IMG/VR virus record: IMGVR_UViG_3300042898_000564
Coordinates: 1-26,457 of that record
Origin: a virus
Reading direction: 5' to 3' (one strand)
Length of the DNA: 26,457 bases
Shown here: positions 4,227 to 23,588 of the stretch, one piece after another
Layout of the letters: every line of letters begins with the position of its first letter
Numbering within the stretch: the first letter of the stretch is position 1
Translations under genes and position numbers: made by a program
The notes under the pieces: generated by a model
Told to the model about the DNA's origin: nothing
The model's database searches: none
The model's input: only the letters and a program-made list of their open reading frames with translations

Positions 4227-4236
4227 TTTTCTTTTT

Positions 4237-4278: not shown

Positions 4279-4336
4279 TGAATAGTGGCCAGTTATTCTA
4301 ACGCCGCTTAACTTTCACAACTTTTATTAATATAAT

Positions 4337-4354
4337 GATCTTTTTTCAAAGATC
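4337..4354 (-). terminator. Perfect 7-bp hairpin with GAAA loop between the 129-aa gene and SSB
   Basis: The coding strand reads GATCTTT, GAAA, AAAGATC: a perfect 7-bp stem closed by a GNRA-type tetraloop, 4 bases past the stop of the 129-residue gene. No U tract follows (the next bases are ATTATATT), so as a terminator it would be weak. It could instead be an mRNA-processing or stabilising element ahead of the SSB leader. Confidence 0.45.
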
Positions 4355-4358
4355 CTAA

Positions 4359-4748: not shown

Positions 4749-4769
4749 TTTCCTTTCGCGCTATCATGT

Positions 4770-4777
4770 ATAAATAT
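4770..4777 (-). promoter_or_regulatory. ATATTTAT octamer, candidate late promoter element
   Basis: The coding-strand context is ACTATATTTATACATG, 21 bases before the start codon of the 129-residue gene and just past the polymerase stop. It is the only member of the octamer set lying in the replication half of the window. Confidence 0.4.
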
Positions 4778-4779
4778 AG

Positions 4780-6129
4780 TTAAAGTTGGTTTTTTACTTC
4801 AGTTAAATTATGATAGTCTGGTCCGATCTCTAATGTTATTGGAAACTTACCATTTTCTTCAAATTCTTCTTTTAATATATCAATTAGTTTCCGCCCGTCT
4901 AACGTATGGAAATCTATAACAAATGCATCATATGTATAAAGTATAATCTTACTTTGACAAGTTCGTATACGATCAACTATATTATTAATTACAGCCATAT
5001 TTCTTTCCGTTTCATATGCCTGTAATAAATAGTTAAGAAGCTTTGCAGGATTCAAATCAGTAAAAAACTTACCATGTAATTTTCTACCAAATAATGGAGT
5101 TTCGATAAATCCATTGTCTCTATAAAATTCCCATAGTCGACTTGTATACTCTGAAATTTTATCGAAAAATGGAACAACTAAATACTCTTGTTGAATACCT
5201 CCATATAACTGTCTAAATGAAATTGACTTAGACTCACTGTATTCATCATCTGATAACTCTGTTTTATCAAAATAGTACTTTCCTAAATATTCATGTACCG
5301 ATACATTATCCGGAAATGAATAATCTACTAGATTTGCTAATAAACGTAAATGGTAAGCATCATAATCAAAAGACATTAAAAAGCCATCTTTTCCAAATCT
5401 ACTTATAAATGTACTACGTTCTCCATCTTTCTTTAAAGCTGCAAAGTTAATTCCATTAAATCTATTAGATGGTCTACCTGTTGTTGTATATGGATTATAT
5501 TGTGTATATACAAATCCATTATCAATAGGTGTCTTTTCAAAATACTGATTCATTAATTCAGGTCGAACAAATAATCCATTCTGTTCAATTTCATATAAAG
5601 CATTCAATGCAGTTTCATTATAAAACTTAAATGCATCTGTATCTTGATAAAAATCCAAGTCATTAAAAAATACATTTACTATTGACTGACACATTTCTAT
5701 ATGTTTAGTTAAAGGAATAATTGTATTTAAATTATTGAATCCTGGATATGTACGAGCAAAAAACTCATGAGCATATGTTTCAAATTCATTTGGCATTGAC
5801 TCGTTACGATGAAAGTATCGAACCATATCCATATCAATTAAATTTGGATGAGATGAAAATCTCTTAAATGATTTTTTATTGTATACGAATATATTAGTAG
5901 TCGTTGGAATTTGTTCTAATATATGTACTGGCAAACGTTGACCTTCTGTATGATTAAATACGCATCCAAATTCTAAATCTGAATATAATACATATACATA
6001 TAAAAATGAAAGAGAATCAGTGTGAGTAGATTTAAACCCATTACTGTAAATCGGAACAATAATCCAATCCGATTCCGAATGCTCACTTAATAACTTTTCA
6101 TATTCGGCAACTGATTCTACTATTATCAT
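4780..6129 (-). CDS. Family A DNA polymerase, short, with degenerate exonuclease domain
   Basis: Template-directed DNA synthesis; probably the phage replicative polymerase. The C-terminal half carries family A signatures: TTGRPS (216-221), motif A SFDYDAYHLRLLANL (253-267, metal ligand D255), motif B KSISFRQLYGG (301-311; K301, F305 and Y309 match the O-helix Lys, Phe/Tyr and Tyr) and motif C LYTYDAFVIDF (397-407, catalytic D401). Departures: the motif A Glu of DYSQIELR is H260, the O-helix Arg upstream of K301 is missing, and motif C has Y-D-A in place of H-D-E. Residues 1-155 follow the pattern of a DEDD 3'-5' exonuclease, but the DxE strand is VPIYSNG (25-31), so proofreading should be lost. 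At 449 residues it is much shorter than Klenow (~605). There is no 5' nuclease domain; the separate gene at 1206 could supply that. Upstream genes are structural. Confidence 0.85.
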   Translation of the reverse strand: MIIVESVAEYEKLLSEHSESDWIIVPIYSNGFKSTHTDSLSFLYVYVLYSDLEFGCVFNHTEGQRLPVHILEQIPTTTNIFVYNKKSFKRFSSHPNLIDMDMVRYFHRNESMPNEFETYAHEFFARTYPGFNNLNTIIPLTKHIEMCQSIVNVFFNDLDFYQDTDAFKFYNETALNALYEIEQNGLFVRPELMNQYFEKTPIDNGFVYTQYNPYTTTGRPSNRFNGINFAALKKDGERSTFISRFGKDGFLMSFDYDAYHLRLLANLVDYSFPDNVSVHEYLGKYYFDKTELSDDEYSESKSISFRQLYGGIQQEYLVVPFFDKISEYTSRLWEFYRDNGFIETPLFGRKLHGKFFTDLNPAKLLNYLLQAYETERNMAVINNIVDRIRTCQSKIILYTYDAFVIDFHTLDGRKLIDILKEEFEENGKFPITLEIGPDYHNLTEVKNQL

Positions 6130-6148: not shown

Positions 6149-6820
6149 TTATTTCGTAAGTCCAAATTTTTGTTTAAATTCTGTAGGGCAAAGAGGTGAA
6201 TATACTGTAAATTCTTTAAAGTCAGTGACGTATTTATCTAATCCTATAAATTTAACAGAATTAGATCTAATAGTACGTTCATTTGTATCTGATACACCGT
6301 ATGTAACTATAGTGCCATTATTAGTAATATCATGTAATGGGCCTGTAAGTTTCCAATCGATTGCAATTGCATTATACAATGTTTCATCAATACCGGCTTT
6401 AACTTTACTCCATAATTTGAATTGCGCTTCATCTATTTCAAATATATCAGCTAAGCTGGTATAGTTTCTTCTCCTAATAAAATAACGTTTAAATGTACCA
6501 TTTATAAAATTACTTTCAATAGGAGTTGAATATGCAAATTTAGGTTGTGTATTATATGACCTAGTAGATTTACTTTGACTTCCGTTGTTTAAACTTTGTT
6601 TGTAAATTATAAACTCGGGTTGTTTAATAGTATCAATAAATTTATTTAAAGTCTTTGATTCTATTTTATCATATACCGCTCCTGACATTACAGATCCGTC
6701 TATGTATTTATGATAAAATCCAATGTATTCGACATTATCAGTTGTCATAAATTCTTTACCAGCCGTGTATAGGTTGTTAGTAATCTGTGACGATGGATAG
6801 TATAAACGTTTTCTTGCCAT
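6149..6820 (-). CDS. Conserved-type phage protein of unknown function, 223 aa
   Basis: I do not recognise a named family. I chose the ATG at 6820 (MARKRLYYPSSQ), which overlaps the stop of the hub-like gene as TAATG. An in-frame ATG at 6859 would add 13 residues inside that gene and is less likely. The N-terminal ~55 residues include YTAGKEFMTTDNVEYIGFYH and a YIDGSVMSGAVYD segment, a pattern I associate from memory with phage virion proteins (unverified). The rest is mixed, with a basic stretch FKRYFIRRRNYTSLADIFE and a C-terminus TVYSPLCPTEFKQKFG. No membrane segments. Translational coupling to the baseplate genes suggests a baseplate or tail part; the next gene is the polymerase, so it also marks the border between structural and replication modules. 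Confidence 0.72.
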   Translation of the reverse strand: MARKRLYYPSSQITNNLYTAGKEFMTTDNVEYIGFYHKYIDGSVMSGAVYDKIESKTLNKFIDTIKQPEFIIYKQSLNNGSQSKSTRSYNTQPKFAYSTPIESNFINGTFKRYFIRRRNYTSLADIFEIDEAQFKLWSKVKAGIDETLYNAIAIDWKLTGPLHDITNNGTIVTYGVSDTNERTIRSNSVKFIGLDKYVTDFKEFTVYSPLCPTEFKQKFGLTK

Positions 6821-8646
6821 TATTTCATTCTCATAACTGTTGATAATGTAGTCGTCCAATCATTATTACTTATATTATGTTCTACATTAGTAACTGTAAA
6901 ATAAACGCTACTAGCATAATCACTTGGAATATAATTAGTAGTTATCGTATTTCCAAATACTATTCCTTCAATTCCGTCAACTGTTACTGATAAATCAATT
7001 GCTGCGGGTTGTAATTTATTTGGAGGTGCTGTAGATGGTTGGGCTGATTTTAATTTCGACAATGCAGCTGACATTTTTTGTATATTAGCATCTGATATGT
7101 CTTTTATTAAGTCTTTTGTAATTGGCACTAAATCAGTTTCAGGATTAAATACAGTATCTGCTTTAATCTGACCTGCTAAATTGTCAGACACATATACATC
7201 AGCTGTAGCAGACGTATTTGCTTGTCTAGCAGAAATATATGCAGCAGCTGCAAACTTTGAAGGTATCTTTGTATTCATTGATATGCTTCGAACCATTGAT
7301 CGTTTAGTACCCGCTTCAAATGAATATGGAGCAGGATTTGAATTTATATAGTTTGTATCAATTATTGACCATTCAGTTGGTTTAATAATTTTTGGATCTG
7401 TAATAATTCCTAATAAATGATATGAACCTGTATAAGTTTTAATCATTTCAAAAATCTTTTCGAAAAATGCATCTATTTGACCTGCATCTTTAGGAGTAGT
7501 ATTTCCAATTGACTTTTGATATTCTTCTGCTGTTTTAAGTAACCAATCAATTGAAATTAATAATTTACTTATATCTCCATTTTCGATAGCTTGTTCATGG
7601 CCTGTATTAGTAATATTAAAATCATCGCTATAATTCATTCGACCCGGAATGATTAATACTAATGGATTTGCAGATCTCATATTAGCATTAACTTCACTTA
7701 TAGTAGTTGTCTCATTACAAATATATTTAAATTTAACTTTACTACCTATCATTTTATTAATTTGATCAACTACTTGTTCTAAAGTAACATAATAAATAGG
7801 CTCGGCAGGTTCTTCACCTTCATCTGCATCGCCATCGGCTTCTTCTTGTCCCTCAGGTGTTCTTTTAAGTTTAAATGCAACTGCAATCAGATCTAATTGC
7901 TCGCCCTTTAAAGGTAATGCCGTCTCGGGTTCGATTTCACTTACACTGCCATCGGCAGAAACTCTAGTTACTTCATCTTTAAATAAAGAAAATATATTAT
8001 TTGCAGGCGATTCTTGACCTGGTTCTGTAGATTCGGGTGGCGGGGGCGGTGGTGTAGCTCCTGTTTCGAATTGACCCGCAACACGTAATGATGCAGCTAA
8101 TACACTTTCCGATATTGCTTCACATGTACAATCAAATCCGCCATTGGCATTTAAATTATAAGAAAAGTTATATACAATACCAGAAAATCTCATAGGCTTG
8201 CCAGCTGCGCCACCTGCCGAATTCCAACCTGCTTCAATTGTTACATCTGCTCCTACTGTAAAAAATGCACTTAATGAATCTAATCCAGATAAACTATAAG
8301 TAGTAAATGATAATTCTGCTCTTTTAGTAGAACCCCATTTTCCTTCATTTGAAATTTTAACTGCTGTAATATGAGACTTAGGAGTAAATCTTTGAGTGCC
8401 TGTATTTGTATACATTCCATTTGCACCAAAGCCTCCCTGCGTCGGAACTGTTAATGAAGATGATTTTCCATTTACTGTCTTTGCAGCTGCAAATGCATAT
8501 GCAGTTTTTTGCAATAGCCATGCATGTGCGCCTGAATCTCTAAGTTGAGCTCCATAGTATGCTTTTCTAGTATTAAGTGTACCCTGAACACTAGAATCTA
8601 CATCTTCTGCAAATACCTTTCCAGTTACTGGTTTATTATCTGCCAT
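6820..8646 (-). CDS. Baseplate hub-like protein (gp27 / late-control-D type), 608 aa
   Basis: Probable central baseplate hub component joining the tail tube to the spike. The best evidence is a domain around residues 105-180: ELSFTTYSLSGLDSLSAFF, then VGADVTIEAGW (131-141), MRFSGIVYNFSYNLNANGGF and CTCEAISES. This is the beta-rich layout of hub proteins (a strand, then 'GA.v.i.aGW', then 'f.G.i'). A flexible region follows, with six consecutive prolines (199-204) and a very acidic segment (EEADGDADEGEEPAEP, about 273-288). The C-terminal part ends in a strand-rich domain (VYFTVTNVEHNISNNDWTTTL). It overlaps the LysM gene by one base (TAATG), the same order as P2 X then D and many contractile phages: tape measure, baseplate protein, LysM, hub. 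The role rests mainly on order and the 105-180 pattern; sequence identity to T4 gp27 is not evident. Confidence 0.65.
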   Translation of the reverse strand: MADNKPVTGKVFAEDVDSSVQGTLNTRKAYYGAQLRDSGAHAWLLQKTAYAFAAAKTVNGKSSSLTVPTQGGFGANGMYTNTGTQRFTPKSHITAVKISNEGKWGSTKRAELSFTTYSLSGLDSLSAFFTVGADVTIEAGWNSAGGAAGKPMRFSGIVYNFSYNLNANGGFDCTCEAISESVLAASLRVAGQFETGATPPPPPPESTEPGQESPANNIFSLFKDEVTRVSADGSVSEIEPETALPLKGEQLDLIAVAFKLKRTPEGQEEADGDADEGEEPAEPIYYVTLEQVVDQINKMIGSKVKFKYICNETTTISEVNANMRSANPLVLIIPGRMNYSDDFNITNTGHEQAIENGDISKLLISIDWLLKTAEEYQKSIGNTTPKDAGQIDAFFEKIFEMIKTYTGSYHLLGIITDPKIIKPTEWSIIDTNYINSNPAPYSFEAGTKRSMVRSISMNTKIPSKFAAAAYISARQANTSATADVYVSDNLAGQIKADTVFNPETDLVPITKDLIKDISDANIQKMSAALSKLKSAQPSTAPPNKLQPAAIDLSVTVDGIEGIVFGNTITTNYIPSDYASSVYFTVTNVEHNISNNDWTTTLSTVMRMK

Positions 8647-11900: not shown

Positions 11901-11978
11901 TTTAGTACTACTAACCAAAGTATCTACTTTCATAGGCTTTCGAAATGAAGCCAAGTTTGATTTTAAATCTGTTAACAT
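8970..11978 (-). CDS. Large baseplate / tail-tube-initiator-like protein, 1002 aa
   Basis: Structural protein encoded directly after the tape measure, overlapping it by one base (TAATG). Only the C-terminal domain (about 800-975) has a recognisable style: FRATLTGFTDDFSPGW, then GRPDGSYIYTSFERTVSFTF, EMIPIWRKLNYLATYTMP, a SGPMMRLTLGHLF strand, and FSISIPDDATWDI. This is the tube-like beta barrel pattern seen in baseplate tube initiators and caps of contractile phages (the gp48/gp54 role). The N-terminal ~430 residues are unusual: rich in Ser, Thr, Asn and Lys, with degenerate repeats around TTPxLKNN and YTLPVL (about 94-190) followed by KFTKP, SKLNLDS and KFSPGKYTP-like phrases (about 255-305). 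That half looks extended or fibrous. The middle has GGPQSVYGLGSTTLSR (about 590-605). The tube-initiator role is inferred. Confidence 0.6.
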   Translation of the reverse strand: MLTDLKSNLASFRKPMKVDTLVSSTKPTTQPMATTPIKVPAIINTPNSVVQPIKEVDTTNVNTSVNYSSNLNQINTSVESNLTVPIITTIQSDLIIERTTPKLQNNQSALINYTLPILKLTSKPTDNIRTKVVSINKLIQQIAFKTPILKNTLTSTIRYTLPVLQNNIQTINYTTPVLKNNQSEISIKSPVSVSLSKLTGNVYIKDIKVTKVDQKRLEAGYIKQSPDIFKSKLDTTKLTSYSGTSIFTKSFVDKSKFNVDTIKVYSQKTKFTKPIINSSKLNLDSLPSKFSPGKYTPTKLYPENILLKSETLLNKPNSTRWKGIIPPAVNFILDTAAKGFTVKYDSSKFVGINGTTYTYPIKGKSVLQVGNYSLNNQLGSGSPKVKSLGFTSTKRYEDSVKSNAQQSILGTWAVTRKSPSPIDDQYTKFNLQLESYNPTYIKQPYITRGIQNGLEPQRWGSTFDDGLIRGGAVTAASRLLYDTIRLGKFAASPKGLLWITKQVGLGLTRPNGLNRIQTGLKSLLSLAGGSTGLRFPAHGAINIIKYEDAIRVKTLIFNTNSGTGDRLTELKNKLSNNSLIIDNSWGGPQSVYGLGSTTLSRVVNTSQLAIANAKQSNYTAKYRLFNKYLNNYIPSLFNDTKAATTEFANQTITDVDINGLRKKLKSFQDPGYATSNDWLNLKGSSADIATWKTTSYGQIPKKSKRKSNVALDFRKLREGIDPDSTNAQYQKTLEKTYGFGSLDSAKTSVPQKGKGSFITSLADLRNDKNALAKNPNFKGDKINAVDIGIKSDIYEASKDLIDFYFLGVAKNQAMAFRATLTGFTDDFSPGWNNINIMGRPDGSYIYTSFERTVSFTFRVAALSRSEMIPIWRKLNYLATYTMPDFSTARASGPMMRLTLGHLFQETPGFLNSFSISIPDDATWDIAEDVDENNLAKQLPTVVDVSVGYTVIADYRPQLGGRAYSLSIKGANNKDTDGNWLFDSMDTVKVGKKSKTPVQKTGA

Positions 11979-14365
11979 TATACTGCCCCGTATGAATTAT
12001 CTACTTTACCTACATAACTTCTATTCATTGTCTGAACTTTATCAATTTCATTAACTACTTTATTACCTATTTTAACTATAACTGGTTGGTTCATTGCAGC
12101 TGCAATTTGTTTAAGTAATGCAACTGTTTCTGAATCGCCCGATGATTGTTGATTGCCTCCAAATAAATTACCTAACATTGCTAATGGATTTGCCATATTT
12201 GAAGCTTCACCTAATCCAGTACCTGCTATTACTGTATCATCAGGTGCCAATTGATATGTACCTTTTTTACCTGATACCATTAACCCACCATCGGGTGCAA
12301 TTTGCGCATCATGTTCTTTTTTAGGTGTATCACCCGCAGCTTCTTTTGATTTATCTTCATTTAATCCTAACAACTTTAACGCCCAATCAGGAAGTAATCC
12401 TTTTATTTTATCTGTTGTCCATCCTAAAGCGTCTTCTGCCATCTTTTTAATACTCGGGAAAAATCCTTTAACTAAGTCAAATGCCAATGTAAATGGCCGT
12501 AATAAATATTTTATTATACCCGAGCCTATATCAGATAATCCACTAAGGAAATCTCCTTTAAATATTTTAACAATGCCTTTAATAATATCAAATGCCATTT
12601 GTATAGGAGCAAATGCAAATTTCATTAATGGGCCAATCGCAGGCAATATAAAATCAACTATCTCTGTAAGTGGATCTAAAATTTCCATCATCGGACCAGC
12701 AATTTTGCCAAATATAGCCATTACCTTATTACCCATTTCAGCTAATTTTTCTTGAGCAGAAGCTTGTTGTTGTTGAAGCACTAATTTTCTAGCTTCTTCA
12801 GCAGTCGTTGCTTGTAACTTAGCTAAATCTTCCTCTTTTAAATCTGATATAGACTTAATCTCACGACCCGATTCTTTCGATAAATCGTTTAATAGTTTTT
12901 GTTGCTCAGCGCCTTTTATTAATGCATCAACTTCCATATTAGCAGCTTTTGCAATAGCCTCTCGTTGGTATGGCGCCATTTTCATTAATTCGTCATACCC
13001 GCCCGCCTGCTTCATAATTTCTTCCATTGACTCATCAATTTTTCCATTTAAAGCTAATTCTCTTGCTTTATCTAGATTCATGTCTTTGCCAGTAAGAACG
13101 CGGGCTTCCATCTCAGCTGCAAGTGATCCTTCAATATCTAATAATCCATCTGTGATAGATTTAACTTCATCTAATGTCTTACCAAATTTTCTAGCAGTAA
13201 TTACTGCTTTTGTTAATTGGCTTATATTTCCTTTAAATGTAGCTTGAACTGCTTTAGAACTACTCGCAACATCTTTCATAACAGCCTTATAATTCATCAT
13301 ACCACCTGTCATTTCTTCAGTAATACCTTGAATTGCAACTACGTTTTGCTCCGCCGTCCTTCCGGATAACATCGCCATTCGTTGAAACATCGCTGCATCT
13401 TCGCCTGCTAATCCATATTGTTTAGTTAACAACACTTGCGTTTCGGCCATTTCAGCTGTTGCTAATTTTGCACTGCCTAATACATTAGCTAATTCCATAT
13501 ATGATTTAGACATTTCGCCAGCTGAAGCTCCAATGACTTTTGTATTTTCGGCTATGTCTAAAAATTCATGATGTAAATGTTCTGCTTCTTCGCGTGATAT
13601 TCCTAAACCACGTGCCATATCAGTAAGCTCTTGATCCATATCAAGTGCTTCCTTAATTAGTATTACCGCTGCGGCCGCGGCGATTGCATATGGATTAATA
13701 CTTTTTAATGATGTAACTAAACCTTTTGCTCCTTGTTTAAATCCTTTAAATCCCCCAATTAAATTGTCTTTAAAAGATGCTCCTTCTTTAGTAGCTCCCT
13801 GTAACGTTGCTGAAAAGGTTTTTGTTAAATCTTTTGCAATACGTTCTTTTAAGTCATCTACGCCTAATGCTTTTGATAATATACCGCCTACTACAGGAAT
13901 TGACTCAATTGAATGTTTAATATTATCAATAAATCCTAATGATTCTTCAATTTCATCGCCGTATTTTTCTTCTATAGCATGAATCTTTTGCTGCTGTTTT
14001 GCTATTTGTTCTTGTAATTTAAGTCGCTTTTTATCAGTTTCTAATTCTTTTAATTTAGCTTTTCCTATCTTAACAGCACTTTTTGTTTCATTTAATATAA
14101 ACCCATGTTCTTTTCGTTTATCCTTTAAATGTTCGCCTGATAAACGTTTAATTGCAATTGCATGTGATTTAACTACATTTTCATTTTTTTCAATGTCTGA
14201 TAAAATACCTAAACGCTGTTCATCTATTTTTAATAATTCAGCTGAATAATCAACGATATCGCCTAATACGTCAGATTCCTTTTCCTGTTTCTTAGCAAGT
14301 TGCTTCTTTAACGAAGCAATTTCCTTGGCTTGGTCTGCAATTAGTTTATCGTGGTCTTTAGCCAT
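11978..14365 (-). CDS. Tail tape measure protein
   Basis: Sets tail length during tube assembly and is held in the tube lumen. Features: an N-terminal coiled coil (about 1-140, nearly all Glu, Lys, Gln and Leu), a hydrophobic Ala-rich helix (INPYAIAAAAAVILIKEAL, about 223-241), a long helical middle (about 245-545), and a second hydrophobic block (about 560-640) with MEILDPLTEIVDFILPAIGP and FAPIQMAFDIIKGIVKIF. The C-terminus is Gly-rich and polar, then LLKQIAAAMNQPVIVKIGN. At 795 residues and roughly 1.5 angstrom per residue, a rule of thumb for other phages, the tail would be near 120 nm. It is flanked by the tagged 131-residue gene (TAATG overlap) and the large baseplate gene, with the gp26/frameshift gene just before: the standard chaperone-tape measure-baseplate order. 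T4 gp29 is the functional counterpart. Confidence 0.85.
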   Translation of the reverse strand: MAKDHDKLIADQAKEIASLKKQLAKKQEKESDVLGDIVDYSAELLKIDEQRLGILSDIEKNENVVKSHAIAIKRLSGEHLKDKRKEHGFILNETKSAVKIGKAKLKELETDKKRLKLQEQIAKQQQKIHAIEEKYGDEIEESLGFIDNIKHSIESIPVVGGILSKALGVDDLKERIAKDLTKTFSATLQGATKEGASFKDNLIGGFKGFKQGAKGLVTSLKSINPYAIAAAAAVILIKEALDMDQELTDMARGLGISREEAEHLHHEFLDIAENTKVIGASAGEMSKSYMELANVLGSAKLATAEMAETQVLLTKQYGLAGEDAAMFQRMAMLSGRTAEQNVVAIQGITEEMTGGMMNYKAVMKDVASSSKAVQATFKGNISQLTKAVITARKFGKTLDEVKSITDGLLDIEGSLAAEMEARVLTGKDMNLDKARELALNGKIDESMEEIMKQAGGYDELMKMAPYQREAIAKAANMEVDALIKGAEQQKLLNDLSKESGREIKSISDLKEEDLAKLQATTAEEARKLVLQQQQASAQEKLAEMGNKVMAIFGKIAGPMMEILDPLTEIVDFILPAIGPLMKFAFAPIQMAFDIIKGIVKIFKGDFLSGLSDIGSGIIKYLLRPFTLAFDLVKGFFPSIKKMAEDALGWTTDKIKGLLPDWALKLLGLNEDKSKEAAGDTPKKEHDAQIAPDGGLMVSGKKGTYQLAPDDTVIAGTGLGEASNMANPLAMLGNLFGGNQQSSGDSETVALLKQIAAAMNQPVIVKIGNKVVNEIDKVQTMNRSYVGKVDNSYGAV

Positions 14366-14760
14366 TATTTATCAAAGTTCTTTTTAAATAATTTTGTAGA
14401 CTTATTTTTAATGTTTTTAGTCCACTTAGAATATTGTTGCATGAATTCGTCAGTAGACATATCAGAACTAAATTTATAGCCATATTTCGTAGCTTCATCA
14501 TACATCTTTTCAGCTTCTTTAACTTGAGTCGCAGCGTCTTTTTCTAATTGAGCTAAATGTTCTGCTGTTAATTTAATTTGCGCTTGCAAATTTTTCCACT
14601 CTGTAGATTTTTTAATTTTTTCAGCATCTCGTTTAACTTTAGGAGTTAAAATAAGAGATATAATTTTATCTACTAGTCCTTCGACAATTAACGGACTATT
14701 TGAATAGTCGTACTTATTAACTTCTTCTGTTATAATAGATCTAATTTTAGATAGTTTCAT
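14365..14760 (-). CDS. Small tagged helical protein before the tape measure, 131 aa
   Basis: Unknown function. The N-terminus MKLSKIRSIITEEV fits the shared tag seen on five other proteins here (Met-Lys-x-x-x-Leu/Ile-Arg-x-Ile/Leu-Ile-x-x-Glu-Val). Unlike the others the tag lacks the closing Ala-Leu-x-Glu, but an (I/L)xE site, IVEG, occurs at 25-28. The rest is charged and helical, with a likely coiled coil about 40-85 (rich in Lys, Glu and Ala: KLTAEHLAQLEKDAATQVKE) and a strongly basic C-terminus (KNIKNKSTKLFKKNFDK). It overlaps the tape measure start (TAATG), so the two are translationally coupled. It has its own ATATTTAT octamer (14779-14786) 18 bases before the ATG. It may be a tail-assembly factor or a small virion protein; nothing decides between them. 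Confidence 0.75.
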   Translation of the reverse strand: MKLSKIRSIITEEVNKYDYSNSPLIVEGLVDKIISLILTPKVKRDAEKIKKSTEWKNLQAQIKLTAEHLAQLEKDAATQVKEAEKMYDEATKYGYKFSSDMSTDEFMQQYSKWTKNIKNKSTKLFKKNFDK

Positions 14761-14794: not shown

Positions 14795-15013
14795 TTATTT
14801 TCGAATAACTCGTTTAGGAGATCCAGGTGCTTTTGAATTAGCGTCTTCCTGTTTCTTTTTTTGCTCATCTAGAGCTTCTTGAGTTTTCTTTAAATAAAAT
14901 TTTCTAAGCCATATAGGCATGTTGTATACCTCGGTCCAGGTAAACCCTTTTCCGTAATATACTATATCAAATAATTGAGAATGCAGTATTGGCTTATACT
15001 CAGGACTGAGGCC
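14795..15013 (-). CDS. Frameshift extension of the gp26-family protein (no start codon of its own)
   Basis: A 72-codon reading frame, +1 (equivalently -2) relative to the upstream gene. It opens where that gene passes a run of seven T (15020-15014) and closes with TAA at 14797-14795. The frame contains a credible protein: GLSPEYKPILHSQLFDIVYY, then GKGFTWTEVYNMPIWLRKFY, then a charged tail (KKKQEDANSKAPGSPKRVIRK). The middle part resembles tail-chaperone extensions in other phages (Tyr-Asn-Met-Pro-x-Trp-Leu-Arg). Upstream in this frame there is no ATG, GTG or TTG before a TGA at about 15041, and the only internal ATG splits the conserved NMPIWL. It should therefore be made only as a fusion to the 287-residue product, in the manner of lambda G/GT. 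Alternative: initiation at a rare codon such as CTG or ATA. Confidence 0.72.
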   Translation of the reverse strand, partial: GLSPEYKPILHSQLFDIVYYGKGFTWTEVYNMPIWLRKFYLKKTQEALDEQKKKQEDANSKAPGSPKRVIRK

Positions 15014-15863
15014 AAAAAAAGTTAGTATCGATATTGAAACTCATATCCTCCTCGATATGAGCGCAATGGTTGCATTCAAATTCTACTTCAAATAATTGGT
15101 TAGGAGATACTTTATTAACTTCAGTTCTTAATGCTCTAGAATCCATTGCAAACAATTCATTATCTACAAAATGCATAATAAATGATTTATCTGTATTTCC
15201 ATCAACTGATAAAATTAAATGCTTTAATCTAGTAGTCAATTCTCTATCAATTCCGTCTTTTTTAATAGATTTTTTTAATGAATCTAATTCATTATCAATA
15301 CGCTTATCATCTCCCGTAGTTAAAATTTTAAATGTAACTTTTCTACCCGTCTGTGGTAATGTAAATTCAAATACATTAGGTGCAATCATTGTAGTAGTAT
15401 CAACTTCTTTAACCGGTAATTTAGTTAAGTCGATTGACATTTTAGTTTTTTCTTCGCACTTAGGACATGTTACTTCAATTGGATATTCTTTACCATATCC
15501 TAATATACGAGCAGCTACCATAATTCCGTTTTTATCGCCGATAGCTAAATCATTTAATCTAATATTAGATACAATCATTGACTGTAATAATTTGTCAATA
15601 ACTACACCTTGTTTAATTAAATTCTGAGAAGTTAAAATGTCTTCTTCTTTGGCTGTCATGTACTTCATTTCAATTTTACCTTCAGCTAATAAATTACCTT
15701 CGGAATATAAAACTCCTTTAGATGGTAATTCGACTATTTCTGTTGGGAAATTGTATTGACGAACTTCGGCTTGATCAAATTGCTGAAGAGCAAATGCTTT
15801 TAATTGGTCATCTGATAATTCTGATGACGATCCTTTTGGGTAAGAATTTGGAACTGTTGTCAT
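15000..15863 (-). CDS. 26: gp26-family baseplate / tail assembly protein with zinc ribbon
   Basis: Member of the T4 gp26 'base plate protein' family. The signature is visible: VELPSKGVLY (44-53), MTAKEEDIL (69-77) and RILGYGKEYPIEVTCPKC (119-136). Two Cys pairs, C133/C136 and C264/C267 with H269 next to them, look like a split zinc ribbon. The ending TNFFWPQS resembles the usual FFWP end of the family. T4 gp26 is described as a baseplate hub or hub-assembly protein; in this gene order (after tube, before tape measure) the position is that of a tail assembly chaperone. The last codons cross a T7 run that can feed ribosomes into the 72-codon frame at 15013-14795, giving about 355 residues. The start has its own octamer 13 bases upstream, and a terminator separates it from the preceding unit. 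Confidence 0.83.
   Translation of the reverse strand: MTTVPNSYPKGSSSELSDDQLKAFALQQFDQAEVRQYNFPTEIVELPSKGVLYSEGNLLAEGKIEMKYMTAKEEDILTSQNLIKQGVVIDKLLQSMIVSNIRLNDLAIGDKNGIMVAARILGYGKEYPIEVTCPKCEEKTKMSIDLTKLPVKEVDTTTMIAPNVFEFTLPQTGRKVTFKILTTGDDKRIDNELDSLKKSIKKDGIDRELTTRLKHLILSVDGNTDKSFIMHFVDNELFAMDSRALRTEVNKVSPNQLFEVEFECNHCAHIEEDMSFNIDTNFFWPQS
15014..15020 (-). promoter_or_regulatory. T7 slippery run, candidate programmed frameshift site
   Basis: The coding strand reads AAC TTT TTT TGG in the gp26-family frame, 18 bases before its stop. A +1 slip (skipping one T) or a -2 slip (re-reading TTT) would continue as GGC CTC AGT into the 72-codon downstream frame. A simple -1 slip would not reach it. 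Confidence 0.6.
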
Positions 15864-15956: not shown

Positions 15957-16427
15957 CTATAAGTATATCTCTGTTTGTATATATACATCAGGCATAATCC
16001 ATGCTCGTCTAACTTCACGGGGATGATTTCCTCCTGGGTCTCTGAACGGATCTTTAAATTTACTTTTTTCAATTTTTAGTGTATTTAAAAAGTCTTTAAT
16101 TGTTTCTGATCCGGTATACTTTAATTTGTTTATCTTATACAGCGTTTCAAGAGAATCAATATTATTTTGTTTTAGCATGTTAGCAATTGATATTGCCATT
16201 TTAGGTGCACTGGGCCTATACAATTCTTTGCCGTCTCTTCTGCGTTGATCGAAAATTTTATAATATGTAGCTGGTAAAAAAGTTAATCTTAAATACTTTA
16301 TAACATCAGCTGACTTAGTAAATTCGTCTAAAAATGAATTATCATTTTCTTTTACTAATTTAGTAGATTCATTAATAGCGTTACGAACTTCAGTTTTAAT
16401 CAGGTTTCTTAATTCTTGTATTTTCAT
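15957..16427 (-). CDS. Tagged protein of unknown function, 156 aa
   Basis: The N-terminus MKIQELRNLIKTEV is the shared tag, ending in an INE/S site at residues 18-21 and followed by VKE at 25-27. The remainder has no family I recognise. It is mostly helical and basic (KYLRLTFLPATYYKIFDQRRRDGKELY; SIANMLKQNNIDSLETLYKI), with a Pro-rich basic stretch DPFRDPGGNHPREVRRAW near residues 124-142. There is no signal peptide or membrane segment. It stands alone between an octamer 50 bases upstream (16478-16485) and a strong terminator. A packaged virion protein is plausible if the tag is a targeting or maturation signal; that is inference. Confidence 0.75.
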   Translation of the reverse strand: MKIQELRNLIKTEVRNAINESTKLVKENDNSFLDEFTKSADVIKYLRLTFLPATYYKIFDQRRRDGKELYRPSAPKMAISIANMLKQNNIDSLETLYKINKLKYTGSETIKDFLNTLKIEKSKFKDPFRDPGGNHPREVRRAWIMPDVYIQTEIYL

Positions 16428-16493: not shown

Positions 16494-17030
16494 TTATAAA
16501 TCACCTGTTTTGCCCTTGAAAAGAATATCTGATTTCTTAAGGCCTTGTGTATTTAACCATTTACCTAATTCATAATTCATATTAGGTATAGGTTCATTTT
16601 CGTTACCGGGTGTTTTTAATTTAGGTAATAATACAGTATCTATAAACTGTTTTTCTATCGTATCATCTAATATAATAGATACTTCAGGATCTAATCTAAT
16701 TGCATCCCAAAATGGAGTCGTTAATTGTTTAAATTCTGAACCTTTAGGATTTTTTAGCTCATCGTTCGAAACTGTTTTACCTAATGCAAATAAAGCTGAT
16801 GCAACTGTTTTAATGTCTTTAATATTATCATATACATCTAATCCTTTTTGTATAATACTAATACCCGGCACTAATGACATTCCAAATTTACCTAATTTTT
16901 TTAATGAACTAACAGCGTCCTGTTCATTAGCCTTACCTACAATTACTTCAAATGCTTGTTTTACTTCGCCCCATGTAGGTTGCGTATCTTCTAATAAAAG
17001 TTGTTCTGCTATAGGTTTAAGCTTGATCAT
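16494..17030 (-). CDS. Unknown helical protein, 178 aa, with a different N-terminal peptide
   Basis: Not a family I recognise. The N-terminus MIKLKPIAEQLLLEDTQ is a short amphipathic, Leu-rich segment ending in LLED. It is not the common tag of its neighbours but has similar style and could be a second type of targeting peptide. A moderately hydrophobic Gly-containing stretch (GKFGMSLVPGISIIQKGL, about 47-64) and KTVASALFALGK (about 74-85) could associate with membranes or be a buried helix hairpin. The C-terminal half contains PFWDAIRLDPEVSIILDDTI and KWLNTQGLKKSDILFKG. It overlaps the upstream 113-residue gene by 14 bases, so it belongs to the ferritin transcript. Confidence 0.7.
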   Translation of the reverse strand: MIKLKPIAEQLLLEDTQPTWGEVKQAFEVIVGKANEQDAVSSLKKLGKFGMSLVPGISIIQKGLDVYDNIKDIKTVASALFALGKTVSNDELKNPKGSEFKQLTTPFWDAIRLDPEVSIILDDTIEKQFIDTVLLPKLKTPGNENEPIPNMNYELGKWLNTQGLKKSDILFKGKTGDL

Positions 17031-17358
17031 TTGAAGCTTGTTTTAATACACCTTTTAATTTACTAGCTATTTGAGTAAAGTCTTGTTCTGTAATACCAAA
17101 TGCAATTGCGACTGCGCCTAATAAAGCAACTCGTTGAGCATTATTTTTTAATGACTTAACAGCTGTCGGATCTTCAATTAAATCTATTACTTTAGCTCTG
17201 ATAGAACTGTCAATAGCTTTAATAGCCATATTTAAATTTTTAATGACTTGAGGATCTTGTATTTTATTACCGTCAGGTCCTACAGGAATAATATCTACTT
17301 CATTTAATGCAGATACAATTTCTTCTTTGATTAATTTTCTTAATTCAGATGTTTTCAT
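17017..17358 (-). CDS. Tagged protein of unknown function, 113 aa, downstream of ferritin
   Basis: Begins with the best tag of the set, MKTSELRKLIKEEI, running into ALNE at 17-20, an (L/I)xE site. After the tag: a Pro/Gly linker (VDIIPVGPDGNKIQDP), then two or three helices, including an Ala/Val-rich hydrophobic one (RVALLGAVAIAFGITEQDF, about 76-94). No known domain. The start codon abuts the ferritin stop (TAA immediately followed by ATG), so production should be coupled to ferritin, and the 178-residue gene overlaps its 3' end. If the tag marks virion cargo, this could be a partner or carrier for ferritin; nothing in the sequence proves that. Confidence 0.75.
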   Translation of the reverse strand: MKTSELRKLIKEEIVSALNEVDIIPVGPDGNKIQDPQVIKNLNMAIKAIDSSIRAKVIDLIEDPTAVKSLKNNAQRVALLGAVAIAFGITEQDFTQIASKLKGVLKQASNDQA

Positions 17359-17954: not shown

Positions 17955-18188
17955 TTAATAACCTTCCGAGGCACCGGCATCTTTAATATCAATAATTAAA
18001 GAAGCTAATTCATTGTAATCAAATTCTCCTCCAGTTGTACCAAGATAATTTTCTAAAGCTATAACAGCTTCTTTAAATTCACCAGAAGGTTGAATTATTT
18101 TTAAAAGCTCACCTTCACTAAGTTGATTTTCGTTAACTGCTTTACGAACTTCAGTTCTGATCAAGTTTCGTAATTCTTGTAGTTTCAT
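17955..18188 (-). CDS. Small tagged acidic protein, 77 aa
   Basis: The first 20 residues are the shared tag (MKLQELRNLIRTEV, ending in AVNE), with a second (L/I)xE-Gly site, LSEG, at 23-26. The body of ~50 residues is acidic and helical (KEAVIALENYLGTTGGEFDYNELASLIIDIKD), ending DAGASEGY. No known domain. It lies between the homing endonuclease upstream and a terminator downstream, with its own octamer 18 bases before the ATG. The short body could mean it is a naturally small internal protein, or a remnant shortened when the endonuclease gene arrived next door; the clean promoter-like and terminator elements favour the first. Confidence 0.72.
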   Translation of the reverse strand: MKLQELRNLIRTEVRKAVNENQLSEGELLKIIQPSGEFKEAVIALENYLGTTGGEFDYNELASLIIDIKDAGASEGY

Positions 18189-18218: not shown

Positions 18219-19034
18219 CTATTTTAAAACGCCTATTAACTGTTCAATACATGCTAATCGATTATTAACTATATCATTTTCCCAGAATCGAATCAATTTA
18301 TAACCTTTAGATTCTGCTAATTGATTTTTTAACTTATCTAATCCTAAATTCTTTTTCTGAGTATTGTTTAAAGTATCTTCTGTATATTTGATAGGATTTG
18401 CATGCCAATAATCTCCGTCAATTTCTATTAATGTATTTATACTAGGTACATAAAAATCATATTCAAATCCATCTACATGATACTGATGAGTAAATTCTAC
18501 ATTTAATGATTCTAATATACTAGCAAATGTATATTCTAATTTCGATGGATTACCTTTTAAAATTTCTTTTCTATTACGAGCTAATGTTTCTAACAGTATT
18601 TTTTTATGCTCTTCTGACTTTGGCTTACCTTTTAATGCTTTTGATATCTTTGCTCGACGTTTAGGATCTGCAGCTGTAATTCGAATCTTTTCTAATTCTT
18701 CACCTTCATAAACTTTTCCTTTATTCCATTGAGATAATTCGCCGGATCCGAATCGTGTCTTTCTAGTCTCTCCTGATTTTTTAGCTCCTTTTTCAGAATA
18801 AAATCCTCCGTTCACTCTAGCTGCATGTCCTTGAATATACTCACCAAAACCAAATGTAGAAAAATAATTTAACTTTTCATTACAGCCGCATTTACATATA
18901 GGCCATTCTCCGTTATAATGTATATTAACATATGTTTGAGCACCGGAGATTTTGTGAGTTCTAGAATTGTGGTTTTGTAACCCTTTGTATGAATCGAATT
19001 CTCGATTACATTCTTTACACGTAAATTTGTCCAT
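18219..19034 (-). CDS. Free-standing EDxHD (VSR-fold) homing endonuclease with zinc finger and NUMOD3
   Basis: Probable selfish DNA endonuclease. Modules in order: a classical C2H2 zinc finger (C6, C9, H22, H27), a second Cys cluster CKCGC (47-51) followed by a GH at 69-70, a NUMOD3-type DNA-binding helix (RAKISKALKGKPKSEEHKK, 127-145), then a VSR/PD-(D/E)xK-like nuclease. In the nuclease, E167 (SKLEYTF), D193 (YDFYVP), H211 (IEIDGDYWH) and D233 (LDKLKN) follow the E-D-x-H-D spacing of the I-Bth0305I group. The end, GYKLIRFWENDI (244-255), is typical of VSR-like proteins. The gene lies between tail tube and a tagged gene with no intron visible, so it is free-standing, like T4 seg and mob genes. 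Its own octamer lies inside the terminator hairpin upstream. The alternative of a repair VSR enzyme is unlikely given the finger and NUMOD3. Confidence 0.85.
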   Translation of the reverse strand: MDKFTCKECNREFDSYKGLQNHNSRTHKISGAQTYVNIHYNGEWPICKCGCNEKLNYFSTFGFGEYIQGHAARVNGGFYSEKGAKKSGETRKTRFGSGELSQWNKGKVYEGEELEKIRITAADPKRRAKISKALKGKPKSEEHKKILLETLARNRKEILKGNPSKLEYTFASILESLNVEFTHQYHVDGFEYDFYVPSINTLIEIDGDYWHANPIKYTEDTLNNTQKKNLGLDKLKNQLAESKGYKLIRFWENDIVNNRLACIEQLIGVLK

Positions 19035-19124: not shown

Positions 19125-19613
19125 TTAAAATTGCAATATTGCGTAATCGTATTTCAACGTAAGAGTAATATTAATAGCATCCTCAGTTGAAAAATCAAAA
19201 TCTCCAAATTGAGCATCTCCAATATAAGCACCTTTTAAAGTCCATTCTTCAACTTTATCACCCACAGGTCCTAATGCATTGAAAGTAATGTCTTTCTTGT
19301 AAAAGTCAGAATAACCATCTCTACCAGTAACTGATTCATGTGATAAACGAATCCACTCCATTACTGCTTGTGCAGCTGAAGGAACTACTGGATCATATAA
19401 TGTAATAGATACATCATTCCAACGACCTTTTCCTTTTAATTTTCTTTCTACGTTGATATGATCTAAAATTACGTCACCGAAAGTAATGCTAGGACGATTA
19501 GCTGCTTTAATTAAATAAGAAGGAATTCCTTCAATGTACATTATAAATCTGTTAGCTACCTTTGGTTCAAAAGCGGTAAACATCACCTCACTTGGATCTA
19601 ATAATTCTGCCAT
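19125..19613 (-). CDS. 19: Tail tube protein, gp19 family
   Basis: Major subunit of the inner tail tube through which DNA passes. At 162 residues it is the same size as T4 gp19 (163). The gp19 fold is suggested by the N-terminal ANRFIMYIEGIPSYLIKAANRPS, the middle RWNDVSITLYDPVVPS and AVMEWIR, and the C-terminal strand pattern WTLKGAYIGDAQFGDFDF then INITLTLKYDYAIL. It is encoded two genes after the sheath, with two tagged genes between. A hairpin terminator follows the stop and an octamer lies 23 bases before the start, so this abundant protein appears to have its own transcript. Confidence 0.92.
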   Translation of the reverse strand: MAELLDPSEVMFTAFEPKVANRFIMYIEGIPSYLIKAANRPSITFGDVILDHINVERKLKGKGRWNDVSITLYDPVVPSAAQAVMEWIRLSHESVTGRDGYSDFYKKDITFNALGPVGDKVEEWTLKGAYIGDAQFGDFDFSTEDAINITLTLKYDYAILQF

Positions 19614-19650: not shown

Positions 19651-20403
19651 TTATTTTTTCTTATTTGCTTCTTTAATCTTAGACGAATTGTATTGTCTAA
19701 TACTTTCTGTTTTTGCAAATCTTCGTCCGCCGGCTTCTTTGATTTTAGTTCTCATTGCATTTGTAGATTCAACTACTTCACCTTTTGTTTTATCAAATTC
19801 ACCTTTTTTAATTAAACCATGAACTATAAAGTTTGTGCGTGGTTGTTTTGTTAAATACATTACTGTTTTGATTGCATCATTTTCATCATCAACATTATCA
19901 ACACCCCTAATGTATCTAAACTTGTATTGTTTTTTAGTTTTTTGATCTAATACAATATAACCATCATATTGTCTAGACATATCAGCTTCATTAACTACTG
20001 ACTCGCCCATGGATGCTTTTGCGTTATCATAAATTGACTGCAACCAGTCTTTAAATTGTCCTGGTTCTCCAGCCTTAGATAAATCATGATGTGTCTTTAT
20101 AAATTCAGTTACGAATGATTTAAAGTCTTTTGCTTCATGAGCCATTATGTCAATATCTGACATAGATGCTTCATTGATAGATTCATACATTCCAGATTGT
20201 CTTAGTTTTTGTCTAAATGCTGGAATTGATTCTGCCCAAGTTGTTACAGCTTCAACTGCACCTGAATTGTCTTCAAAGAAATCCATTACATCTGAATACC
20301 CTAATACTTCTACTAATTCTTCTAAACCAGAATCACCGCTGTATTCTTGTAATGTTTTCTTTATAGATTCTCTTATTAAATCTCTTAATATTTGTTCTTT
20401 CAT
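19651..20403 (-). CDS. Tagged polyprotein-like protein with several protease-type sites, 250 aa
   Basis: I chose the ATG at 20403, which gives the shared tag (MKEQILRDLIRESI...TLQE); an upstream in-frame ATG at 20451 would start inside the preceding gene and is rejected. The tag ends TLQE at 17-20. Further sites of the form (I/V)xE then a small residue occur at INE/A (76-79), VNE/A (137-140), VVE/S (210-213), IKE/A (221-224) and IKE/A (243-246). T4 prohead protease gp21 cuts after (L/I)xE, usually before Ala, Gly or Ser. Cutting would give pieces of about 58, 61, 73, 11, 22 and 5 residues. Two begin alike (ASMSD, ADMSR), and residues 140-210 look like a small beta domain (YDGYIVLDQKTKKQYKFRYI). 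No known family. It follows the 210-residue tagged gene by 4 bases. Confidence 0.75.
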   Translation of the reverse strand: MKEQILRDLIRESIKKTLQEYSGDSGLEELVEVLGYSDVMDFFEDNSGAVEAVTTWAESIPAFRQKLRQSGMYESINEASMSDIDIMAHEAKDFKSFVTEFIKTHHDLSKAGEPGQFKDWLQSIYDNAKASMGESVVNEADMSRQYDGYIVLDQKTKKQYKFRYIRGVDNVDDENDAIKTVMYLTKQPRTNFIVHGLIKKGEFDKTKGEVVESTNAMRTKIKEAGGRRFAKTESIRQYNSSKIKEANKKK

Positions 20404-20407
20404 CTTA

Positions 20408-21040
20408 TTATATTTTAGTTTGCATTGCCATAGATATGTCCTTAAGGTCATTTTTTAATGTATTTACATTGTATTGACCACCTGCGATAATTTCATAAAT
20501 TATCTTTATTTTTTTACTGTTCTTTTCAACAGACTGCGCATACTTTTTCATGTAATTATTTTTTTCTACTTGCTCAGCAAAGGCTTGCGTAAACTCATCA
20601 AATGATTTTGATTTGCATTGACTTGATAGGTCTTGAGCCGTTTGAGCGTTAAATACTTCAAAGAAATACTCTAATGCATTCTTCATGTCATATGTAGAAT
20701 CATTTAATTCTATTTTTGCTAAACCTGCGGCTCCATATACTAACATTCTAGCGCCTATATAAGGCAATAATTGAGTAGCTAATGCATACTTGGTTCTTCT
20801 AGGATAAATTTTTGAATATCCAATTGGAGATCCTATTACTGCATCTACATCAAACCATACTTTATAATGATCTTGTGGTCTAGAATTTTCCCATGCTCCG
20901 TCAGATAATTGACCTAAAATTTCAGCGTTAAATAAATTAAGCTGAGATTGGTTTTTAACAGTTAATGTACCGTACTTAACTTCCGTTAAAGCTTGTTTAA
21001 CCGATTCTTTTATTAAATTTTTTAATTCAAAAAGTTTCAT
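20408..21040 (-). CDS. Tagged protein of unknown function, 210 aa, after the sheath gene
   Basis: Starts with the shared tag MKLFELKNLIKESV ending in ALTE (17-20). The body contains a compact-looking domain: LNLFNAEILGQLSDGAWENS (34-53), then HYKVWFDVDAVIG, IGYSKIYPRRTKYALATQLLPYIG and a hydrophobic segment ARMLVYGAAGLAKIEL (about 97-112). The C-terminal ~70 residues are Lys/Gln-rich helices. The GQLSDGAWEN phrase looks like a conserved motif, but I cannot name the family. It begins a two-gene transcript with the polyprotein-like gene; a terminator lies upstream, after the sheath, and an octamer lies 17 bases before the ATG. Position between sheath and tube is unusual for non-tail genes. Confidence 0.75.
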   Translation of the reverse strand: MKLFELKNLIKESVKQALTEVKYGTLTVKNQSQLNLFNAEILGQLSDGAWENSRPQDHYKVWFDVDAVIGSPIGYSKIYPRRTKYALATQLLPYIGARMLVYGAAGLAKIELNDSTYDMKNALEYFFEVFNAQTAQDLSSQCKSKSFDEFTQAFAEQVEKNNYMKKYAQSVEKNSKKIKIIYEIIAGGQYNVNTLKNDLKDISMAMQTKI

Positions 21041-21122: not shown

Positions 21123-23588
21123 TTATTGACCGAAAGAAGCTCCGGTTGGGAGAATGTTAAAGTCAATAACAATAAATTCAGCAGTCTTAGTAGGTTGTAA
21201 AAAGATTTGACCATACATAATATTCCTGTCAATCAAGTCAGGAGTGTTATTAGTTTCATCCATTACTACTTTGAAAGCATATAATCCTTGTCTTTGTTGA
21301 ATAGACTCTAAATAAGGGTTAACAATATTTAAGAATCTGTTTCTAGTAGCAGCGGTATTTTGTTCAAATACTAAGTATTTAGTAGCTGATGCAATATACT
21401 TTTTAACTGCAATTAAAAGACGACGTACATTGATTCTATCTAATGCACTTGGCTTAGCTTGTAATGTCTTTTGACCCCAAACAGCAACACCTACACCTGG
21501 GAAGGTAGCAATTGGGTTAACACGACCATCATATAAATCATCTCTCTCAGCGTGAGTTAATCTAGAATAAACATCTGTTACTGAAGTTAATCCACCTCTG
21601 TTTAATCCTGCAGGTGCATACCATTCAGCTGATACTTTATCATTAAATGCTAATACTCCTGGAATAACTACTGAAGGTGGTACCCATGTTGGTTTATTTG
21701 CATTGGTATCCATAATTTTCACCCATGGATAATAAGTAGCTGCATAATTATTGTCTACTGCACTAACTGCATTGGTAGCGGTAGTAATATTATCTGTAAT
21801 ACTTGTATTATCATATATTAAGAAAGCATCGCCTCTATCTAATACCATTGAACTTGCATAGTCAATTACCGAAGGATGTAATGTATATATTACACCTGGC
21901 ATTGCTACTAAATTAAAATCGTATTCATCTGGATTAGATAAAACATCAATGGCATCTTTATATACTGAAAATCCTGCAGCAGAAGTAGATGATAAATCAA
22001 ATCCTTGTGTATTTGCAGCAACGATTTCAGAACCAACTAAAGATCTTCTATTAGGTTGAATTCCATCAGCTCCACCTTGGAACGGAACAACAAACTTACG
22101 AGTTTCAATTGAAGTATTCGAAGTTAAATCAACTGAACCAGAATAAGCTATAGCAGTTGTAGGATAACCTGCATTTGCTGATTGATTATAACTAGATAAT
22201 AAGAAAGTTGTATTTACACCTGTTGTAGAACTTACTACCGGAATAGGTTTCAAATAGTTCCAGTTATCATTAGTTGTTAATGAATAATCAAATCCAAATG
22301 CAACTCTTTTATTGTAAAGACCATTTACATCTTGTGAAGTTACAAATGTAGCAGCAGGAACGTTACTTACCGTCGACGGTAATGAATTGTACAATGCAGC
22401 ATGACCAAAAGGAACTAATTCAGAAGAATAAACTCCTTTGTCTACATTAGAATCCATTTCTACATAAACATATTTAGATTTGTTTGAATAGTTACCATTA
22501 ATAATTACTTTACCATTAGAGAATGTTTTGTATCTGTCTCCAATTACACGAGCAATGTATCTAGGTGAATTAGGATCTAAGTTAACATTATCATATGATT
22601 CTAATACATTTGGTCTATTATCTGAATCTTGAGAAGTAAATGGAGAACCTAATAACTGCAATTTGGTTTGGTCAACAGCTCTAATTGTTACTGAGAATGA
22701 ACCATACTCTGAACCAGCTACCGATCCTGCAGGTTTAATATTTGATACAATTGCTTTAACTTCATAGTTAGAATAAACACCATCTGCGATAGTATGTAAT
22801 TTAAACAAGTTAAAGTTAGTGTTGTTAACTGTTTGTGAAATAACCCAAGGAGTAGTAGCTTCTTTATAAGCTTCTCTAAAGTCTAAATCAACAGTTGTTA
22901 ATGACATTGATACAAATGTAGTAGCAGACCCAGAATACATTTGAGCTGCTCTAGTTTCAAACATATTGTATAAATACACAGGATCTTTTGTAGATTGTGC
23001 TTTTAATCCTAATGACTTAGCAATGTAATTTGTAGCGCTAGGATTTAATGATGCAGATACATATGTACTTATAAAATTTGAAGTACCAGGGAATGTAGCA
23101 GAATCAACTGTAAATACTCCAGATACAATTAAATTTGCAACACCTGAGCTAGTTGATACAGTATCTACAGTTGATAAACTAAATAAATTAGTTGTACCAT
23201 TGTAGAAAGCTGTTGTTTCTGATAAAATTTGTGAAGGATGTAGAAGAGCAACTAATGAACTTGTTACAGCTCCATTAGAACCTGAATAGGTAGCAGATAA
23301 AGCAACTACTTTACTTACTTTGTAACCATCATCTGGTAATGTTCTTACTACTGTTAATTGACCTGAATTTGCTAAATACTCTTTTGCAGCGTATGGCAAA
23401 TAATAATTCGGATTGGTATCACCGAAAACTTGTGTGAATTCACCAAAGGAACTTACTGTGGTTGGTACACCTGCCGGGCCTTTAACTGTAGGACCAATAA
23501 ACGCAGCACCAATCGCAGCAATTCCTTGTGGTAAATAAGATAAGTCTTTTTCTTCGGTAAATACACCTGGGGATACTAGTTTTTCCAT
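21123..23588 (-). CDS. 18: Tail sheath protein, gp18 family
   Basis: Contractile sheath subunit that drives the tube through the host envelope. The N-terminus SPGVFTEEKDLS (6-17) is the classic sheath start, followed by AAFIGPTVKGPAGVPTTV and LPYAAKEYLANSGQLTVVR. The conserved C-terminal domain has NPIATFPGVGVAVWGQKTL, RINVRRLLIAVKKYI and KYLVFEQNTAATRNRFL. The length of 821 residues is well above T4 gp18 (659); the extra length lies in Ser/Thr/Asn-rich, beta-type middle domains (about 120-480), which are normally surface-exposed. A terminator follows and an octamer lies 34 bases upstream, so it is a single-gene transcript. Confidence 0.95.
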   Translation of the reverse strand: MEKLVSPGVFTEEKDLSYLPQGIAAIGAAFIGPTVKGPAGVPTTVSSFGEFTQVFGDTNPNYYLPYAAKEYLANSGQLTVVRTLPDDGYKVSKVVALSATYSGSNGAVTSSLVALLHPSQILSETTAFYNGTTNLFSLSTVDTVSTSSGVANLIVSGVFTVDSATFPGTSNFISTYVSASLNPSATNYIAKSLGLKAQSTKDPVYLYNMFETRAAQMYSGSATTFVSMSLTTVDLDFREAYKEATTPWVISQTVNNTNFNLFKLHTIADGVYSNYEVKAIVSNIKPAGSVAGSEYGSFSVTIRAVDQTKLQLLGSPFTSQDSDNRPNVLESYDNVNLDPNSPRYIARVIGDRYKTFSNGKVIINGNYSNKSKYVYVEMDSNVDKGVYSSELVPFGHAALYNSLPSTVSNVPAATFVTSQDVNGLYNKRVAFGFDYSLTTNDNWNYLKPIPVVSSTTGVNTTFLLSSYNQSANAGYPTTAIAYSGSVDLTSNTSIETRKFVVPFQGGADGIQPNRRSLVGSEIVAANTQGFDLSSTSAAGFSVYKDAIDVLSNPDEYDFNLVAMPGVIYTLHPSVIDYASSMVLDRGDAFLIYDNTSITDNITTATNAVSAVDNNYAATYYPWVKIMDTNANKPTWVPPSVVIPGVLAFNDKVSAEWYAPAGLNRGGLTSVTDVYSRLTHAERDDLYDGRVNPIATFPGVGVAVWGQKTLQAKPSALDRINVRRLLIAVKKYIASATKYLVFEQNTAATRNRFLNIVNPYLESIQQRQGLYAFKVVMDETNNTPDLIDRNIMYGQIFLQPTKTAEFIVIDFNILPTGASFGQ

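Follow-up and report, generated by a model that had tools for sequence, protein, structure and literature searches.

How is a conserved stretch of codons expressed when it follows a gene in another reading frame and has no usable start codon? The question is raised by a T4 gp26-family gene in a virus-record fragment of 26 kb (IMG/VR record IMGVR_UViG_3300042898_000564, 26,457 nt; hereafter the window). An earlier note, made from the sequence of the window, had proposed a programmed +1 or -2 frameshift. The comparisons reported here indicate that one gene very probably yields two products, gp26 and a gp26-extension protein, by a +1 ribosomal slip, and that the two would form a short and long tail chaperone pair. 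Shifts of -1, +1 and -2 are known among phage tail chaperone genes, and a 2016 review described tail-chaperone frameshifting as widely conserved, with T4 as the exception (PMC5009743).

The gp26-family gene and its out-of-frame extension

On its minus strand, the window encodes a contractile-tail module of T4-like type, which includes baseplate genes. The module comprises a sheath gene (21123-23588), a gp19-like tail tube protein gene (19125-19613; PF06841, E=4.5e-6, just below the curated cut-off) and the gene of a tape measure protein of 795 aa (11978..14365). The latter protein shares 24% identity (E=6e-24) with the protein annotated as tape measure in Flavobacterium phage immuto and 30% (3e-43) with its equivalent in Mel-JY01. 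The order tube, gp26 with tail, tape measure is the usual one, with additional small genes between; one of these, of 131 aa (14365..14760, minus strand), separates the extension from the tape measure gene. In immuto, LIS04, SP-15 and BRock, the three genes adjoin directly. The window's tape measure protein is the presumed client of the gp26-family chaperone.

The gp26-family ORF (15863..15000, minus strand) encodes 287 aa and belongs to PF12322, T4_baseplate (E=7e-14; 52.5 bits for a cut-off of 24.5), and to phrog_150 (E=8e-18). Its 3' end reads AAC TTT TTT TGG CCT CAG TCC TGA. The shift site, TTT TTT TGG in 0-frame codons (15012..15020), has a UUU_Y core and includes a run of seven T (15020..15014); the 0-frame stop TGA (15000..15002) comes three codons past TGG. 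A second frame, in a +1/-2 relation to gp26, is open from stop to stop over 81 codons (15040..14795) and is closed upstream by a stop at 15041-15043. The extension after the slip (14795..15013, minus strand) counts 72 codons and a stop; it starts with GLSPEYKPILHSQLFDIVYYGKGFTWTEVYNMPIWLRKFY, runs from GLSPEYK to RK and is homologous to a small cyanophage ORF called 'gp51'. The earliest ATG, GTG or TTG in this frame is an ATG at 14920..14918, within the conserved TWTEVYNMPIW block. An AGGAGG motif lies about 30 nt upstream of the shift site.

According to the proposed mechanism, the majority of ribosomes would stop at the TGA and release gp26. On a fraction of ribosomes, peptidyl-tRNA-Phe, paired with a UUU that precedes a further U (UUU_U), would move forward by one base and pair with UUU again; translation would then continue with GGC CUC AGU and yield the gp26-extension protein of 355 aa (P0001). 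By analogy with lambda, the short protein would coat the tape measure protein, and the tail of the minority long protein would bring in the tube subunit. The proportion of the two would depend on how often the shift occurs or, in T4, on expressing the two genes separately. The comparison of loci described below shows the conserved frame and site, the selection on the tail and the homology of the two forms to T4 gp26 and gp51, respectively; the ribosomal nature of the shift, its efficiency and the chaperone role of its products are what we infer from sequence.

Two features of chaperone genes are present at the locus: the gene lies between tube and tape measure, and a conserved out-of-frame extension begins at a slippery site near its 3' end. 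By position and family, gp26 and its extension are best read as the short and the long chaperone of the tape measure protein in T4-related phages. The lambda G / GT tail assembly chaperone frameshift, reportedly described by Xu, Hendrix and Duda in 2004, likewise affects the 3' end of a gene flanked by those of tube and tape measure and gives a short and a long protein. In contrast to lambda, the window gene belongs to PF12322, with which G/GT shares no sequence relation, and its shift is a +1 event at UUU_Y. The suggestion in the earlier note that gp26 is the tail-chaperone equivalent is strengthened by the apparently programmed shift in a gp26 homologue. Structure prediction was applied to a natural fusion of gp26 and tail in locus L012 (pTM 0.40), in which the tail is modelled as three compactly packed helices (pLDDT mostly 85-94). 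A fold search with this model of pTM 0.40 gave no significant match, the tail chaperone 2ob9 (HK97) appearing at rank 6 with E=1.5. Similarly, gp26, gp51 and the family profile found no sequence match among solved structures.

Conservation, rival explanations and direction of the proposed shift

Relatives of three divergent members were retrieved from IMG/VR, giving 184 loci. The tail could be found in 181 of them; the other three end at a contig edge. It lies in the window's frame in 179 of the 181, and in 178 loci when L012, a special case with tandem genes, is set aside. These 178 loci contain 135 distinct junctions, on which the site counts are based. The identical frame relation is also found in the isolates Mel-JY01, immuto, SP-15, LIS04, GXN1 and four Streptomyces phages. 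The 72-codon out-of-frame tail without a usable start, as described in the earlier note, was thereby confirmed, and the frame relation holds as +1/-2, not -1, in the window and these loci. No clear frameshifted tail was seen in Alishewanella phage Slicko01 and the uncultured phage LR756511; LR756511 may carry a separate tail ORF. In the Streptomyces phages L191 (5255-5437), L313 (3339-3536) and L315 (3303-3458), small genes annotated as 'hypothetical protein' occupy the position of the frameshifted tail after gp26, and these genes are probably mis-annotated.

In the +1 frame, the tail codes for protein and is under strong purifying selection. Substitutions fall on the first, second and third codon positions of this frame in the ratio 203/129/663, i.e., 663 of 995 are in the third position (p about 1e-110). 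Over 56 independent pairs, pN/pS amounts to 0.14 when the tail is read in +1, compared with 1.5 to 1.8 for the two alternative frames. Conservation of the tail starts right at the slip site, not farther downstream, and 6 of the first 11 bases of the site are invariant in the 135 junctions. Frame, site and pN/pS together support the claim that a T4-gp26 homologue contains a programmed shift. For the minimum free energy of the 70 nt downstream of the site, a mean z of -0.77 was obtained over 80 loci, which corresponds to weak RNA structure; the signal over these loci is too weak to claim a stem-loop stimulator.

The earlier note had itself raised two other explanations. One of them is an error of sequencing or assembly in the T run, the true gene being in a single frame. 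A homopolymer within a metagenome contig is a plausible place for such an error, but the same frame relation recurs in 135 distinct junctions and in isolates, many of them without a homopolymer. The isolate genomes refute an error, which is practically out of the question. The other explanation is that the tail is a separate protein, made from a rare start codon or by reinitiation past the gp26 stop. Indeed, a separate tail ORF with its own ATG lies just past the gp26 stop in L094 (3723-4043) and L100 (around 3724-4011), and some cyanophages have an ATG near the junction and a tail annotated as a separate 'gp51'. However, in the window and in most relatives, the conserved tail begins directly with the slip site. 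In 43 of the 135 junctions, the tail frame is closed by a stop 2-8 nt upstream of the site. From the preceding stop up to and including residue 10 of the tail, 60 of the 135 have no ATG, GTG or TTG, and the tail frames of L050 and L067 contain no such codon at all. Moreover, the slip motif UUU_Y is absent from L094 and L100, precisely where the tail has its own ATG, which is the reverse of what a separate start would predict. A separate protein is therefore very unlikely. Given the junction stops, the missing starts and the independent loci, both independent initiation and homopolymer error are excluded as general explanations.

Frames can also be joined by transcriptional slippage, when RNA polymerase loses one U in some transcripts. 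The seven T of the window form a homopolymer, and loss of one U would lead precisely to the NFFGL frame. Nevertheless, the run is broken to three or four T in 43 of the 135 junctions (TTT CTT, TTC TTT, TTT CTA), with frame and tail kept, and the Streptomyces site holds TTT only. As no T run longer than four is left in those 43 junctions, transcriptional slippage is excluded for these loci. T runs of this length or longer are not uncommon in other parts of the gene (27 in 108,664 nt), so the T run itself is not special. As a general account, transcriptional slippage is highly improbable.

The preferred reading, a ribosomal slip, could in principle proceed by +1 or by -2, since both lead into the same frame. 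In 0-frame codons, the 135 junctions read TTT TTT TGG (91), TTT CTT TGG (28), TTC TTT TGG (10) and TTT CTA TGG (3), and once each TTT TTT TAC, TTT CTA TTC and TTT CTT TAC; CTT_TGG is thus found at the junction of some relatives. UUU followed by U or C (UUU_Y) is kept in all of them. The anticodon of tRNA-Phe is GAA, and this tRNA can re-pair one base forward without mismatch at every one of the 135 junctions. TTT CTA sites need the slip on the first codon and TTC TTT sites on the second, while either fits where both UUU codons are present. SP-15, LIS04 and Streptococcus GXN1 also show a +1 relation at UUU_Y.

In a -2 slip, tRNA-Phe would move back two bases on the T run and the product would gain an extra Phe (NFFFGL). 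Such shifts have been reported for tail genes of phage Mu (PMC5009743), where they enter the same frame as in the window. The sequence TTT TTT followed by T permits a -2 slip in 92 of the 135 sites, and wobble re-pairing would allow it in 29 more. P-site re-pairing two bases back is, however, limited to these 121 junctions; it is impossible in the remaining 14 (TTC TTT TGG, TTT CTA TGG and TTT CTA TTC), all of which retain the tail. It is equally impossible at CTG TTT_C of the Streptomyces phages BRock, GiJojo, pSt2308 and LuckySocke, which have the tail in +1. Furthermore, the fused gene of L012 encodes NFFG, with as many residues as a +1 slip would give, and the codon preceding the site varies, which rules out tandem -2 slippage. 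A -2 slip is thus unlikely, and the shift is most likely +1, as judged from the junction sequences. Since the 91 TTT TTT TGG sites also allow -2, the mechanism could vary between single loci. From the pair of directions offered in the earlier note, +1 stands, as it fits all 135 junctions, and -2 fails at 14 junctions and in four Streptomyces phages. In the alignment of homologues suggested there, the offset proved conserved but the run of seven T did not prove essential, as TTT CTT TGG, TTC TTT TGG and TTT CTA TGG occur.

In known +1 events, i.e., prfB (CUU_UGA), the Listeria phage PSA and HSTV-2, the P-site tRNA slips forward to an overlapping codon, as proposed for the window. The events in PSA concern capsid and tail proteins. 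The HSTV-2 shift concerns a tail chaperone and is very likely +1 (PMC5009743). Unlike prfB, the window site has no stop codon in the A site, and gene and purpose differ.

Probable frameshifts, duplications and separate starts in the gp26 family

The theme extends to the gp26 family more widely than first proposed. S-PM2, P-SSM2, HTVC008M and KVP40, like the window, possess a single PF12322 gene with a homologous tail ORF at its very end. In contrast to the window, this tail is in the -1 frame: the last codons of the gene are N NNT TTT TTY, followed by a small -1-frame ORF. It is annotated 'gp51' in S-PM2 and P-SSM2 and is also a separate gene in KVP40, whose record remarks on its similarity to the T4 gp51 C-terminus. 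In 84 of 84 loci (80 from IMG/VR and the four phages named), the canonical -1 heptamer U UUU UUC/U stands before the -1 tail. The jumbo phages RAS14 and Atu_ph07 have a -1 relation at U UUU UUU / U UUU UUC. As scans of IMG/VR with the gp26 of SP-15 and Atu_ph07 matched only those phages themselves, these two groups rest on few isolates. By direction, the -1 users are thus the cyanophages, KVP40 and the jumbo phages, and the +1 users are the window's clade, Thornevirus and the Streptomyces phages.

T4 has two duplicated genes and no frameshift, whereas the window has one gene and a shift. T4 gp26 and gp51 both match the PF12322 profile from end to end (9e-64 and 4e-52), and gp26 and gp51 family members match each other in BLASTP down to 1e-11; judging from these similarities, the two are paralogues. 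T4 gp26, the homologue of the window's short product, stops where the slip site sits elsewhere, and gp51 runs about 48 residues on, this stretch being the tail. Profile comparison with hhalign linked the window-family tail to the cyanophage tail (probability 95.7%, E=1e-8) and, in a single comparison, the cyanophage tail to the T4 gp51 tail (97.7%, E=2e-12). The window tail compared directly with the gp51 tail gave no significant match (probability 6.6%, E=0.0055), so the link is drawn via the cyanophages. The fused family aligned to full gp51 with E=4.7e-5, the alignment running through the junction.

A maximum-likelihood tree built on the shared domain unites gp26 and gp51 in one clade (99), with KVP40 (87) and the cyanophages, which are -1 users, next to it. 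Of the +1 users, GXN1, SP-15 and LIS04 group with the window's clade (99), and the jumbo phages and BRock have no firm placement (46, 43). The grouping with KVP40 and the cyanophages puts the T4 duplication inside a -1-frameshifting lineage, and T4 appears to have replaced the frameshift by gene duplication.

A comparable replacement is seen among the +1 users. L012 has a short gp26 gene with no tail after it (3001-3861) and a tandem second gene (3914-4852), in which gp26 and tail are joined in one frame through AAC TTC TTC GGA (N-F-F-G) and the slip motif is lost. This tandem is an independent counterpart of T4 26/51 that arose separately. The short copy retains TTTTTTTGGCCT despite having no tail downstream. 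Genes 51 and 26 of Klebsiella phage KP15 (L217, 1501-2244 and 2241-2795) are neighbours with a shared orientation; those of T4 are divergent.

T4 gp51 is needed for assembly yet absent from the particle, and gp26 and gp51 were considered hub assembly chaperones, a chaperone role having been proposed earlier (PMC3004832). In the GenBank record of Acinetobacter phage Konradin, gp26, gp51 and gp28 are named 'tape measure protein assembly chaperone'. The literature covered, which lay largely outside the subscription journals, did not connect gp26 and gp51 with frameshifting. It is likely that one homologous site of the gp26 family switched direction between -1 and +1, was replaced at least twice by duplication (T4 26/51 and L012) and at least once by a separate start (L094, L100), and that gp26 and gp51 are the G and GT of T4, which would then be no exception. 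In that literature, no description was found of frameshifting in the gp26 family, of its directional switch at a single homologous site or of T4 26/51 as a short and a long form that arose by duplication; all three may be new.

These results offer gp26 and gp51 a defined function that can be tested, as the short and the long tape-measure chaperone. Selection would keep two products in a set ratio, while the means varies between +1, -1, duplication and a separate start. In many genomes, the long product is wrongly annotated, as a separate small gene or as 'baseplate hub', or is missing.

Other genes of the window

Further observations concern other genes of the window. A TTG start is given for ORFs 6149-6859 and 25324-26268, of which the latter runs off the window edge and probably begins beyond it. 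An N-terminal segment with the pattern MK(x)xELRxLIxxEVxxAxNE recurs in several small proteins, encoded at 14365-14760, 15957-16427, 17017-17358, 17955-18188 and 20408-21040; in 19651-20451, the segment is internal. We take it to resemble the T4 capsid-targeting propeptide, and the proteins that start with it may be packaged into or delivered by the particle. ORF 18219-19034 combines a zinc-finger-like N-terminal segment with an endonuclease-like C-terminal motif (LIEIDGDYWHANP) and has the look of a homing endonuclease gene that inserted itself into the tail module.
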